64,000 nucleotides of DNA, from positions 496,001 through 560,000 of the forward strand of contig JAQJDB010000007.1 of the NCBI GenBank assembly GCA_032139905.1. Reading direction: 5' to 3'. Below are positions 3,729 to 9,457 of the stretch, piece by piece. This stretch comes from Nitrospira sp. MA-1. Lineage in GTDB: Bacteria; Nitrospirota; Nitrospiria; Nitrospirales; UBA8639. The translations under genes were made by a program, and so were the position numbers. The notes beneath the pieces are model-generated. The model was not told where the DNA came from and made no database searches. It was given only the letters and a program-made list of their open reading frames with translations. Numbering within the stretch: position 1 is the stretch's first letter; each line of letters starts with the position of its first letter.

Positions 3729-5609
3729 ATGAATGATCCTAATGCCAATATGCTGAGAGGTCCCTCTCAGCTGCCGATATCCTTCAGCCTGTGTGTGGCT
3801 GGGTTTCTGGTTGTCTTACTCTTTGGCGGCCTTGGCCTCTTGGCCGAGACCGACGCAGCCACCATTGTTATTGTGAATAAAGATAGCCCTGGTGAGGGAT
3901 TTAACGATCCTGCCCCTTTTACCCCAGTGGGTGGGAATACCGCGACAACGCTTGGGCAGGCGAGGTTGAAAGCCTTTGAGTATGCGGCAAATATTTTAGC
4001 GCAGGGATTGGTGAGTACGGTGGGCATTCGAGTCGATGCTCGAATTGATTCCTTAGGAGCAGGAATCCTGGGATCGGCTGGCCCTAATACCGTCCATCGG
4101 AATTTCCCCAATGCTCCGGTGGCGAATACCTGGTATGTTCAATCCTTGGCAAATAAATTTGCAGAACAGGACCTGGATCTGACTACCAGTGATATAAGTG
4201 CCACCTTCAGTGCAAATTTCACGAATTGGTATTTTGGGCTGGATGCCAACCCCCCAGCGGGACAATTTGATTTTGTCACCGTGGTACTTCATGAAATTAT
4301 CCATGGCCTTGGGTTTTTGTCATTGGTCGACGCCCTGACTGGAGAGACATTCCTTGGAGGCAATGATGCTTTTATGCGCTGGTTAGAGCATCATGGAGCC
4401 AGCCCGGCCGATTATCTTTCAATGACCGACCTGCAACGGCAATCTGCGAATGTTTCTTGGCAGAATCTTCATTTTGTTGGTGCCAGTCTTCAAGGGGCAT
4501 CTGGGACATTGACGGCCGGACGAACAAACACACATGTGCAAATGTATGCCCCGAACCCGGTTGAATTGGGTTCGTCGGTGTCTCATTTCACGAACACGAT
4601 TAAGCCAGATCAGCTTATGGAGCCTGGAATAGCTTCCGGAAGGGCGATTCATGATCTCGGGTTGGCTCAACCTCTGTTGCAGGATTTAGGATGGGTATTT
4701 GAAGCTGACGTGAGTTTTCCAATTCGAAATGATGTCAATGGGGACGAAAAGGCAGACCTCGTCTGGCGCAATACCAGCACGTGGGCTGTTGCGATTTGGT
4801 TGATGAACGGTCCTACGATTGCTTCCTCCGGTTCATTGGGCGTGGTGTCGTCGAAGTGGCAGGTTGCCGGTACCGGAGATGTCAATGAGGATGGGAAAGC
4901 AGATGTGATCTGGCGCCACAGCGATACCGGAACGGTAGCGGTGTGGCTGATGAATGGTCTCACTGTCATGTCGGTGGGTTTTCCGGGTAGTGTCTCTCTG
5001 GATTGGCAAATAGCGAGTGTGGGTGATGTTAACGGCGATGGGAGGGCAGACGTCGTTTGGCTAAACACGAGTAGTGGAGAAGTGACGATTTGGTTAATGA
5101 GCGGCTCCACGATTGCTTCTTCCGGCCACTTGGGTGCGGTGCCGTTGGAGTGGAAAATGGCCGGAATGGGAGATATGAATGCCGATGGAAAAGCGGATCT
5201 TATATGGAGGAATACCCTTACCGGCGCAGTGGAAACGTGGCTAATGCAGGGGCTCACGGTCCTGTCAATAGGTTTCACCGGTGGGGTCTCCACGGATTGG
5301 CAGATTGCGGGGGTGGGTGATGTGAATGATGACGGGATGGGGGATTTGGTTTGGCGCAAAACGAGTAACGGGGAGGTTGCAATTTGGTTGATGAATGGAG
5401 TGACTCTCAGTTCGCCGGGGTTTTTTGGCGTGGTGCCTCAGGGGTGGGAGATTGCTAACACCAGTGATGTCAATGGGGATGGGCGCGCAGATATTATTTG
5501 GCGTAATAAGCAGACGGGTACGGTGGCGGTGTGGATAATGAATGGGCTCGCAATCACGTCGATAGGCTTTCCGGGAAGTGCCTCAACCAACTGGAAAATT
5601 CAGCATTAG
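3729..5609 (+). CDS. Secreted zinc metalloprotease with six C-terminal FG-GAP-like repeats
   Basis: An N-terminal hydrophobic segment (residues ~15-45, ending near 'ETDAAT') is a signal peptide or anchor. The protease-like part spans ~45-330 and carries 'VVLHEIIHGLGF' (about residue 190), a metzincin-type HExxH zinc site with the following Gly. The usual third histidine of HExxHxxGxxH is a serine here. A later 'SSVSHFTN...DQLMEP' stretch may supply a ligand and the Met-turn. From base 4731 to the stop there are six ~49-residue blades ('DVNGDGKADxIWRN..AIWLMNG'), alternating two forms as in the gene at the start of the window. Peptidase activity is inferred from the motif. Confidence 0.82.
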   Translation: MNDPNANMLRGPSQLPISFSLCVAGFLVVLLFGGLGLLAETDAATIVIVNKDSPGEGFNDPAPFTPVGGNTATTLGQARLKAFEYAANILAQGLVSTVGIRVDARIDSLGAGILGSAGPNTVHRNFPNAPVANTWYVQSLANKFAEQDLDLTTSDISATFSANFTNWYFGLDANPPAGQFDFVTVVLHEIIHGLGFLSLVDALTGETFLGGNDAFMRWLEHHGASPADYLSMTDLQRQSANVSWQNLHFVGASLQGASGTLTAGRTNTHVQMYAPNPVELGSSVSHFTNTIKPDQLMEPGIASGRAIHDLGLAQPLLQDLGWVFEADVSFPIRNDVNGDEKADLVWRNTSTWAVAIWLMNGPTIASSGSLGVVSSKWQVAGTGDVNEDGKADVIWRHSDTGTVAVWLMNGLTVMSVGFPGSVSLDWQIASVGDVNGDGRADVVWLNTSSGEVTIWLMSGSTIASSGHLGAVPLEWKMAGMGDMNADGKADLIWRNTLTGAVETWLMQGLTVLSIGFTGGVSTDWQIAGVGDVNDDGMGDLVWRKTSNGEVAIWLMNGVTLSSPGFFGVVPQGWEIANTSDVNGDGRADIIWRNKQTGTVAVWIMNGLAITSIGFPGSASTNWKIQH

Positions 5610-6740: not shown

Positions 6741-6842
6741 ACGGTCATAACCTGAAAATGGCAAACCATCTGAAAGGGTGGGACGCAAAGCCATGGGCCT
6801 ACTTCTTGGAGTTCAAGATAAGGTTGCCAGGTTGCCAGGCAA
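6741..6842 (+). promoter_or_regulatory. c-di-GMP-I (GEMM) riboswitch aptamer
   Basis: The stretch at 6760-6803 carries the signature of the class I cyclic-di-GMP riboswitch: GGCAAACC, then a GAAA tetraloop hairpin (CATCTGAAAGGGTG), then GGGACGCAAAGCC and GGCCTA. The second hairpin and the tetraloop-receptor half follow as GGTTGCCAGGTTGCCAGG at 6822-6839. CCTG at 6751-6754 can pair with CAGG at 6836-6839 to close P1. The aptamer ends ~75 bases before the ATG of a secreted fibronectin-III gene, which it should control. Confidence 0.92.
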
Positions 6843-6848
6843 GTCACA

Positions 6849-6909
6849 GAGTCTCCTTGATCAAAAGCGACGTGGCTTCGCTCGGCATGACTCACATGCA
6901 TAAAGGAGA
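6849..6909 (+). promoter_or_regulatory. Expression platform: anti-Shine-Dalgarno arm and RBS of the riboswitch-controlled gene
   Basis: TCTCCTT at 6852-6858, directly after the aptamer, is a perfect complement of AAGGAGA at 6903-6909, the ribosome binding site of the ATG at 6916. Between them AGCGA and TCGCT can form a small hairpin that brings the two arms together. A competing GAGTC (6849-6853)/GACTC (6889-6893) pairing would free the site. This predicts translational control; which state c-di-GMP favours cannot be read from sequence alone. Confidence 0.6.
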
Positions 6910-6915
6910 TCTCGT

Positions 6916-7317
6916 ATGGCAGACGATCAAGGTTTCTCTCGAGTAGGTGTTCCCCGTCCCCATTCTTCCCGATTCGCGGTTAGTTTATTATGGGCCATTG
7001 TCATTTTTCTCTGCTTCTCCCACTCCAATGCATTGGCGGGAGAAGTCACCCTAGCCTGGAATCCTCCTTCCGCTGAATATGGAGGATTTATCATAGCCTA
7101 CGGGACTTCAAGCGGCAGTTATACTCAGAATCAAGATGTCGGATCCCAAGCCATCTATACCTTAACAAGCCTGATTCCCGGTCAAACGTATTATATTGCG
7201 GTCAAGGCATACGACCGGAATCGGAAAATCGAAAGTCCCTATTCGAACCAGGTCAGTGTTACTGTGCCTATTGTTGCGGCACGCCCTGCTCCTCCTCGGA
7301 ATGTCCAAGTTTATTGA
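6916..7317 (+). CDS. Secreted fibronectin type III domain protein under c-di-GMP riboswitch control
   Basis: A 133-residue protein with a strong AAGGAG site 8 bases before the ATG. After a short basic start, residues ~19-42 form a hydrophobic export signal ending near 'SNALAGEVTLAW'. Residues ~42-120 are one fibronectin type III domain, with the landmarks 'VTLAWNPP', 'GFIIAYGTSSG', 'YTLTSLIPGQTYYIAVKAYDRN' and 'SPYSNQVSVTV'. No catalytic domain or repeat follows. FN3 domains mediate protein or polysaccharide contact on extracellular proteins. With c-di-GMP control upstream and a polysaccharide locus downstream, a role in biofilm matrix or surface attachment is the natural inference. Confidence 0.85.
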   Translation: MADDQGFSRVGVPRPHSSRFAVSLLWAIVIFLCFSHSNALAGEVTLAWNPPSAEYGGFIIAYGTSSGSYTQNQDVGSQAIYTLTSLIPGQTYYIAVKAYDRNRKIESPYSNQVSVTVPIVAARPAPPRNVQVY

Positions 7318-8125
7318 AACTCAACATCGTCATCTGCGGCAAATATTTATTGGGAGTTTGTATTGGTAGCCAGGGTGCATCCCCGGATATGTGGTTAGCT
7401 GAATTCTCCTGGGTCTTGTACGGTGAGATCCGTCATAATGAAGACGCCTACTTCCGGGACAATTTGCAGAACGAGGATGTTCTGCAAAGGGCGCATTTAA
7501 AAATAATTTTTCTCAGGCGATATGGCGTTAATTATAAGGATGGATTGTCTAAAGGAGTCGAGCACATAATATCTCATAAGTATTCTTCGATTTTTTTAAA
7601 TCTCACTTCGTCGAATTTTTGCTAACCCTCCCCAAGTAACTTTACGGGAAATTCGGCATCCCTGCCGGATTGCACCAATCCAATATTCATGGAATAGTTT
7701 GTTCTGCTTCGCAAGCGTCGTTTATCTTCTCCTATTGGGCTTCGACAGACATGGTTTCCCCGAATTTAACTGTACGCCGTAGGGTATTCTTGGTTCCCCC
7801 TACCCTAGATCGACTTTATCCTGTAATTTTGGTAATCATCCCTTCGCAAGAAAAATTCTCCTAGAAGGAAAATATTCTCATACCAAAATCGATGACTGTT
7901 TCTTCTATCGGTTCCTATGGTAAGGTCCGTTCCTTATCGGAGCACTCATTTTGTAATTGACTTAGCAAGGGGATGAGGGCACCATATTTAAATGTGATTA
8001 AGATCCACTATTTTTGCTCTTCTGAATCCACCCGGATATTTGAATCGATTAGTGAGTATGGTTATTTGATGATTAATTGCGTATGGCCAAAAACTAGAGC
8101 GCTACGCCTTTTCCCATTTTGCACG
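7318..8125. other. Mostly non-coding interval
   Basis: A 103-codon frame at 7314-7625 would need a TTG start with no ribosome binding site and shows no recognisable sequence. Nothing else supports a gene. The in-frame extension of the downstream beta-barrel gene up to an ATG at 7973 falls here and is judged untranslated because the signal peptide begins at 8126. Confidence 0.35.
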
Positions 8126-9457
8126 ATGCGTGAGCGGAAATGGGGTCTTGTTCTTTTTCTAACATGTCTCGTTTCTTGTGAGGTTTTTGTCCCGGGCACG
8201 GTGAAGGCTCAATCCTTTTCTGATATGGGACTATTTTATTTCACTGGGTCTCACCGACCTATCCAAAATCGGAGCGGGCTTTTTCGTGAATATCTGGCGG
8301 GAAATGGTATGGGGGATGGTCTCAAAGCCGGTCCGGTTCAGCTCCATCCGTTTTTAGGTGTATCGGAAGTGTTTACAGACAATGTGTTTAAGAGAGACAC
8401 AAACACGAAAAGTGACTTTCTTACGACCATCGCACCAGGGATTCAGGCGTTCATGCCGTTTGGTGGAGGTAAGCATTCCGTTCTTCTTGACTACCGCGCT
8501 GCCCAATTTCTCTACAAAAAATTTACCGACAATAATGCTTTGGCTCAAGATGCTCTTGGCCATGTAAGCTTGAATTATCCTGGTGGGTTAGCAATAGACT
8601 TGCAAGGAGGCCATTTAGAAGGGTTTGACCCGAGAGGGTCGGAGGTGGATACTCAACAAAAGGATATTACCAAGTGGAATGTGAATCAGTTTTTAGGTCA
8701 AATTGAATTCACGGGGCAAAAGGCAGGTATCCGTCTTCGCACGTATTTTGATGATATAAATTACACAAACAATGGTCAGGATGCCCCGCGGGACCGGACC
8801 CGTGCTGGGGCCAACCTCAGTGTATCTGTAAGTGTAACCCACTCAACTCGAGCCCTTCTTGGCGTTCGAATGGTCAACAATGATTATAATACGAATACGC
8901 AGCAGAATAGTTTCGGTTACGGGGCGTATACGGGCTTCAGTATAGCTCCTACCCGCCAGTTATCGGGAGAACTTAATGTAGGGTACCAGGTTTTAAATTT
9001 TGACCATGCGGCTATCGATGAAAACTCCGCCCGTGGCCAAGACCTTCTTTCAAAGGGCTTAAGCTTAGGATCGGCACAGCGGACCTTCTTTTACATGCGA
9101 GGAAATTTGGATTGGAACCCTACGTCTCGGTTAAGTTTTCGTCTCCGTCCCTTTTCAACAATTAATCAGTCAGCGGTTCAGAATACTTCCACGTATAAGC
9201 GAATAGGCGTTGACCTTTATGGGAAACAGTCATTTACGGACCGGTTTGCCCTGCGTGGAAATTTCTACTACGCCAACGATAATTTTGATACCAATAGAAC
9301 GGATGATCGATTTCGTTTGCGGATAGGACCGGAATATCGTACGGTTAAATGGTTGGGATTTCGTTTGGATTATATTTTCGAGAAGAGAACCTCAAACATC
9401 GACAATTTTGATTTCAATAGTAATACGATCATGCTTTCAATCCAAGGGATTATCTAG
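8126..9457 (+). CDS. Outer-membrane beta-barrel protein (BBP2-like porin family)
   Basis: The ATG at 8126 places the signal peptide (MRERKWGLVLFLTCLVS...GTVKAQ) at the N-terminus; in-frame ATGs at 7973 and 8069 would add 51 or 19 residues before it. No site has a convincing RBS. The mature ~415 residues are made of alternating hydrophobic/polar strands with aromatic girdles, such as 'HSVLLDYRAAQFLYKKF' and 'GIRLRTYFDDINYTN', ending in 'FDFNSNTIMLSIQGII'. An early 'LHPFLGVSEVFTDNVF' is typical of outer-membrane proteins of exopolysaccharide clusters. Role as an outer-membrane component for polymer export or assembly is inferred from family resemblance and from the nearby polysaccharide locus. 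Confidence 0.75.
   Translation: MRERKWGLVLFLTCLVSCEVFVPGTVKAQSFSDMGLFYFTGSHRPIQNRSGLFREYLAGNGMGDGLKAGPVQLHPFLGVSEVFTDNVFKRDTNTKSDFLTTIAPGIQAFMPFGGGKHSVLLDYRAAQFLYKKFTDNNALAQDALGHVSLNYPGGLAIDLQGGHLEGFDPRGSEVDTQQKDITKWNVNQFLGQIEFTGQKAGIRLRTYFDDINYTNNGQDAPRDRTRAGANLSVSVSVTHSTRALLGVRMVNNDYNTNTQQNSFGYGAYTGFSIAPTRQLSGELNVGYQVLNFDHAAIDENSARGQDLLSKGLSLGSAQRTFFYMRGNLDWNPTSRLSFRLRPFSTINQSAVQNTSTYKRIGVDLYGKQSFTDRFALRGNFYYANDNFDTNRTDDRFRLRIGPEYRTVKWLGFRLDYIFEKRTSNIDNFDFNSNTIMLSIQGII

Follow-up and report, generated by a model that had tools for sequence, protein, structure and literature searches.

A c-di-GMP-I riboswitch with a predicted translational OFF platform in front of a secreted FN3-domain gene in Nitrospirales

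The FN3 locus and its conservation

The window, as we call the whole 64,000-nucleotide stretch of DNA analysed here, comes from a 4.76 Mb genome whose host is probably a nitrite-oxidizing bacterium of the Nitrospirales. On the forward strand, positions 6916-7317 encode a secreted protein of 133 amino acids with a single FN3 domain (Pfam PF00041, 34 bits against a gathering score of 25, residues 41-115) and an N-terminus that, read by eye, was hydrophobic and signal-peptide-like. A c-di-GMP-I (GEMM-I) aptamer was found upstream of it on the same strand, at 6750-6839. Downstream lies a BBP2_2 outer-membrane beta-barrel (7973-9457, forward strand; PF10082, 101 bits), which tblastn placed in synteny with the FN3 gene at every orthologous locus checked. 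Two large FG-GAP-repeat proteins of very similar type are encoded upstream (56-1897 and 3729-5609), and the synteny of the second with the FN3 gene is retained in relatives. The sequence-only reading had placed the gene next to a polysaccharide locus, and Pfam indeed found a Wzm-type ABC2 protein, Wzt_C, glycosyltransferases and Bac_transf nearby.

Close relatives of the FN3 protein were found in the same genus only, in Nitrospirales assemblies named, for example, UBA8639, NPIRA03, NPIRA06 and HKST-UBA08. Eight species, the window included, have an intact gene preceded by a readable leader, and the intact orthologues in the other species were 72-77% identical to the window protein. In G015 the FN3 copy is broken and the aptamer is 8 nt short, and in G005 the leader lies off the contig. 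The alignment of nine leaders comprises the eight intact-gene species and the broken-gene G015. Wherever the contig was long enough, the gene order was conserved: FG-GAP protein, small ORF, riboswitch and FN3 gene, BBP2_2 barrel, 9787-type protein.

DNA identity to the window was 86-92% in the aptamer, 83-93% in the platform, 78-82% in the coding sequence and 55-68% downstream; upstream it was 73-77%, but 90% in G010. Aptamer and platform are thus more conserved than the coding sequence, the downstream DNA and, mostly, the upstream DNA. The damaged aptamer and gene of G015 might suggest an orphan or decaying leader with no regulatory effect, but this is very improbable, given that the window and seven other species keep an intact aptamer and platform which are more conserved than the gene behind them.

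The aptamer and its pairing partners

The sequence-only reading had proposed a c-di-GMP-I riboswitch and named a covariance-model search as one check. Using cmscan against Rfam we obtained a full-length match to RF01051 (model positions 1-87) with 78.8 bits, an E-value of 8.2e-14 and a gathering score of 35, and this was the sole Rfam match in the whole 64-kb window. By alignment to the Vc2 numbering of PMC4744006, the contact residues G20, A47 (stacking) and C92 correspond to G6760, A6787 and about C6835. The GNRA-capped P1b stem is present, and the P1 5' strand CCUG (6751-6754, forward strand) pairs with CAGG at 6836-6839, as set out in the pairing table of the nine orthologues. In G008, P1 carries one double change from U-A to G-C, but has lost the outer pair. 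As a member of RF01051 the window aptamer is ordinary: it shares the full aptamer, the P1b cap and all three contact residues with the class, and nothing in it is distinctive. Its ligand would, by these residues, be c-di-GMP; canonical GGDEF motifs gave five matches in the window genome. Plasmid copies of the element were also considered and set aside, as the sole match was an 81-nt aptamer stretch in Cohnella.

Behind the aptamer, the strand GAGUCUCCUU (6849-6858, forward strand) faces the Shine-Dalgarno (SD) region AAGGAGAUCUC (6903-6913, forward strand), which is its exact complement with one bulged U. The earlier claim that TCTCCTT (6852-6858) complements AAGGAGA (6903-6909) stood and could be extended: GAG:CTC adds to the pairing, so that the stem has 10 of 10 pairs around the bulged U, and its core is kept in the orthologous leaders. 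Where the sequence-only reading had named one small hairpin between the two strands, two were present, AGCGA/UCGCU (6866-6882, forward strand; 97.8% of the cells of the table paired) and GCAUG/CAUGC (6885-6899, forward strand; 93.3%), both inside the anti-SD:SD arm. Over the nine leaders, 90% of the cells were paired for the anti-SD strand and 92.8% for the anti-SD arm, which fell to 58% or less when the partners were slid. In G007, G008 and G015 the anti-SD reads GATCC, and from the alignment it could be re-registered as GAUC:GAU(C/U) with a bulged C. Counting both strands, the 7-mer TCTCCTT is found 10 times in 64 kb, against 10.2 expected from shuffles, so that simple arithmetic puts the chance of finding it within the approx. 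45 nt between aptamer and SD near 0.004. Folded alone, the platform reached -21.7 kcal/mol in the anti-SD:SD stem, which is weakly significant (z = -1.5).

A second conserved helix, P-alt, competes with this arrangement. Its 5' strand GCC-A-GGC-AAGUCAC (6834-6847, forward strand) shares positions with the 3' strand of P1 and with the ligand-site C, and pairs with GUGGCUU-C-GCU-C-GGC (6872-6886, forward strand). All 13 of 13 pairs form in the window, and 98.3% of the cells were paired over the nine orthologues (at most 45% with the partners slid). The outer six pairs consume the P1 3' strand at 6836-6839 and the ligand-pairing C at about 6835, and the anti-SD sits in the P-alt loop; full P-alt is therefore incompatible with a ligand-bound aptamer as well as with the anti-SD:SD stem. 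Its 7-bp core, taken by itself, lies clear of the aptamer. Compensatory double changes were found neither in P-alt nor in the anti-SD arm of the nine leaders, and what is conserved is thus complementarity and not covariation, which is uninformative for P-alt and the anti-SD stem because identity is too high (93%).

The competitor suggested from the sequence alone had been another one, GAGTC (6849-6853) pairing with GACTC (6889-6893). Both motifs are present in the window, but the pairing is disrupted in four of the eight orthologues (G007, G008, G015 and G019; three of the seven with an intact aptamer), and alongside P-alt it could form only as a pseudoknot. We concluded that the better fit is P-alt, and no other conserved helix that would free the SD was found. 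No terminator-like site was detected between the aptamer and the start codon (6840-6916), and a transcription-terminating platform was rejected, there being no intrinsic terminator upstream of the start codon. An upstream strand complementary to the SD and a second, mutually exclusive conserved helix are both in place, and conserved complementarity together with helix exclusion supports the translational platform that had been proposed.

Computed switching and predicted polarity

The ensemble calculated for the window leader gave the SD core a probability of 0.37 of being free. When the aptamer and P1 were locked the value dropped to 0.00, with the SD fully paired to the anti-SD, and when the P-alt core was forced it rose to 0.77. 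With a ligand bonus of 0, 2, 4 and 6 kcal/mol the SD-free probability was 0.37, 0.31, 0.06 and 0.00. In the intermediates of the window leader ending at 6887-6902, P-alt exceeded 0.9 before the SD had been synthesized, so the choice can fall during RNA synthesis. Among shuffled platforms, 2.5% switched as strongly as that of the window. The masking of the SD by the locked aptamer, the ligand-bonus series, the early P-alt, the rarity among shuffles and the lack of a terminator lead to a predicted translational OFF switch, and we regard it as probable, on the folding model, that c-di-GMP turns the window leader off in this way.

Binding of c-di-GMP would lock P1 (6751-6754:6836-6839) together with the ligand site and bar P-alt from extending, leaving the anti-SD at 6849-6858 to pair with 6903-6913 and to mask the ribosome binding site that serves the FN3 gene. 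When no ligand is bound, the first helix to form during synthesis would be P-alt (6834-6847:6872-6886), which would dismantle P1 and the ligand site; the anti-SD would then be kept in the P-alt loop and the SD would stay open. The sequence-only reading, which gave no polarity, had spoken of linking the messenger of biofilm formation to a matrix-type protein. Taken as a hint at activation, this is the reverse of the computed switch.

An ON switch, in which c-di-GMP frees the SD, for instance by way of a pseudoknot or loop-loop contacts or by a kinetic trap beyond nearest-neighbour energies, and the FN3 protein is made in the biofilm, is in our judgement unlikely. Such a polarity would match the control of surface adhesins by c-di-GMP, which usually runs in an activating direction, and the SD would be set free if GAGTC:GACTC formed. 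In V. cholerae, Vc1-dependent expression of gbpA drops when c-di-GMP is lowered (PMC4744006), which also fits an ON switch. Against it stand the SD of the window, fully paired once aptamer and P1 are locked, the loss of GAGTC:GACTC in the four orthologues named above, and P-alt, which frees the SD by taking the P1 strand.

The orthologues did not all behave alike in the calculations. Besides the window, only G019 gave a clear equilibrium switch; the SD of G010, G001 and G002 was hidden in both calculated states, and SD exposure was predicted to differ little between the states in G007, G008 and G009. For G009 and G019, imposing the aptamer fold cost about 13 kcal/mol in a model that is blind to tertiary contacts of the aptamer, and the balance between the states may thus be misjudged. 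The orthologues showing no equilibrium change in SD exposure would fit a leader that senses c-di-GMP and acts mainly on mRNA stability or through Rho-dependent termination, mechanisms with precedent among other translational riboswitches. We consider such an output improbable as the main one, since the stretch complementary to the SD is long and local sequence changes have left its core intact.

A close known counterpart in mechanism is Vc2 (VC1722) of V. cholerae, a translational OFF riboswitch whose ligand masks a distant ribosome binding site, according to the summary of Inuzuka 2018 in PMC9262584. The window leader resembles Vc2 in class, in P1-centred control, in its OFF polarity (predicted for the window) and in a ribosome binding site far from the aptamer; it differs in its target gene and in a competing helix that also captures the ligand-site C.

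c-di-GMP-I elements in the genus and the base at position 20

The FN3 protein had been described as a lone one. The single domain bears this out for the domain content, but as a target the protein has company: four of the six c-di-GMP-I elements in the window genome precede FN3 proteins, and the other two a pilin and a sigma factor. Across the 21 genomes of the genus we counted 89 elements and classed them by the next gene. Secreted FN3 proteins, some with Big_7, follow 38 of them (nine window-like, and 20 and nine of two other classes), a sigma-70-type factor of 292 amino acids behind a terminator-like hairpin follows 20, and a Flp/Fap pilin 16; the remainder precede response regulators (7/89), small unknown proteins (2/89) and others (6/89). 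Rough folding of the other FN3-class platforms gave a hidden SD for class B (platform without aptamer) and a mixed picture for class E. The genomes to which both queries were applied gave 66 FN3 matches; a c-di-GMP-I element lay less than 500 nt upstream of 42 of them, and nine of these 42 belonged to other genera of the family.

Several of these loci deserve separate mention. Almost all genomes of the genus carry the sigma-70 (r2/r3/r4) arrangement with element and hairpin upstream (L005 and 19 related loci), and c-di-GMP may through this riboswitch act on a whole sigma regulon. The pilin gene starts approx. 95 nt past the element in L003 and 15 related loci. On contig C6 of the window genome, L004 and L006 are about 2.9 kb apart, each followed by an FN3 gene, which suggests a local duplication.

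At the equivalent of Vc2 G20, the window and six further orthologues have a G, and G001 (L029) and G002 (L010) an A. An A was also found in five FN3 class-B and three response-regulator leaders; besides L010 and L029, the leaders with A20 are L077, L078, L079, L080, L100, L111, L116 and L125. L121 of G001, in front of a response-regulator gene, has a C, a base unexpected for recognition of either c-di-GMP or cGAMP. In Geobacter, A20 reportedly goes with cGAMP sensing. Position 20 has been described as a selectivity factor (PMC9262584). The GEMM-Ib (cGAMP) riboswitches of Geobacter thus share A20 with the orthologous leaders of G001 and G002 and with some paralogous ones, whereas the window element has G6760. 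A strict motif search for Hypr-type GGDEF domains (Ser at the Hypr position) found none in the 21 genomes. A search for the DncV family gave no match, but it gave none in the control genomes either and thus carries no weight. With G20 present and no Ser-type GGDEF motif in the 21 genomes, we rejected cGAMP as the ligand of the window element.

For the orthologous leaders with A20, the base exchange may reflect a drift in ligand, a lower affinity or the sensing of two ligands. We regard it as improbable that the leader changed its ligand between sister species, from c-di-GMP (G20) to cGAMP or both (A20, in G001 and G002), in a genus where no Hypr synthase was detected.

GEMM-controlled FN3 genes have been reported from G. 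bemidjiensis (Gbem_1796/1798/1799; PMC2996986) and G. sulfurreducens (KN400_1971; PMC13194489). There, too, a GEMM riboswitch precedes a surface FN3-domain gene and the genes have multiplied; the window belongs to another phylum and has G20, and it is likened to them by domain and arrangement. What is added here to this known association is the prediction of polarity and the unexplained G20/A20 split. Among the papers searched, there was no relevant report of c-di-GMP riboswitches in Nitrospira or the Nitrospirales. With this locus, the abundant and hardly tractable Nitrospirales present a clear case of secreted FN3 proteins that form a set under predicted c-di-GMP control. The predicted polarity, in which the messenger would lower the amount of FN3 protein, offers a sharp and cheap test, and the natural G20/A20 split among the orthologues provides a ready comparison for ligand selectivity.
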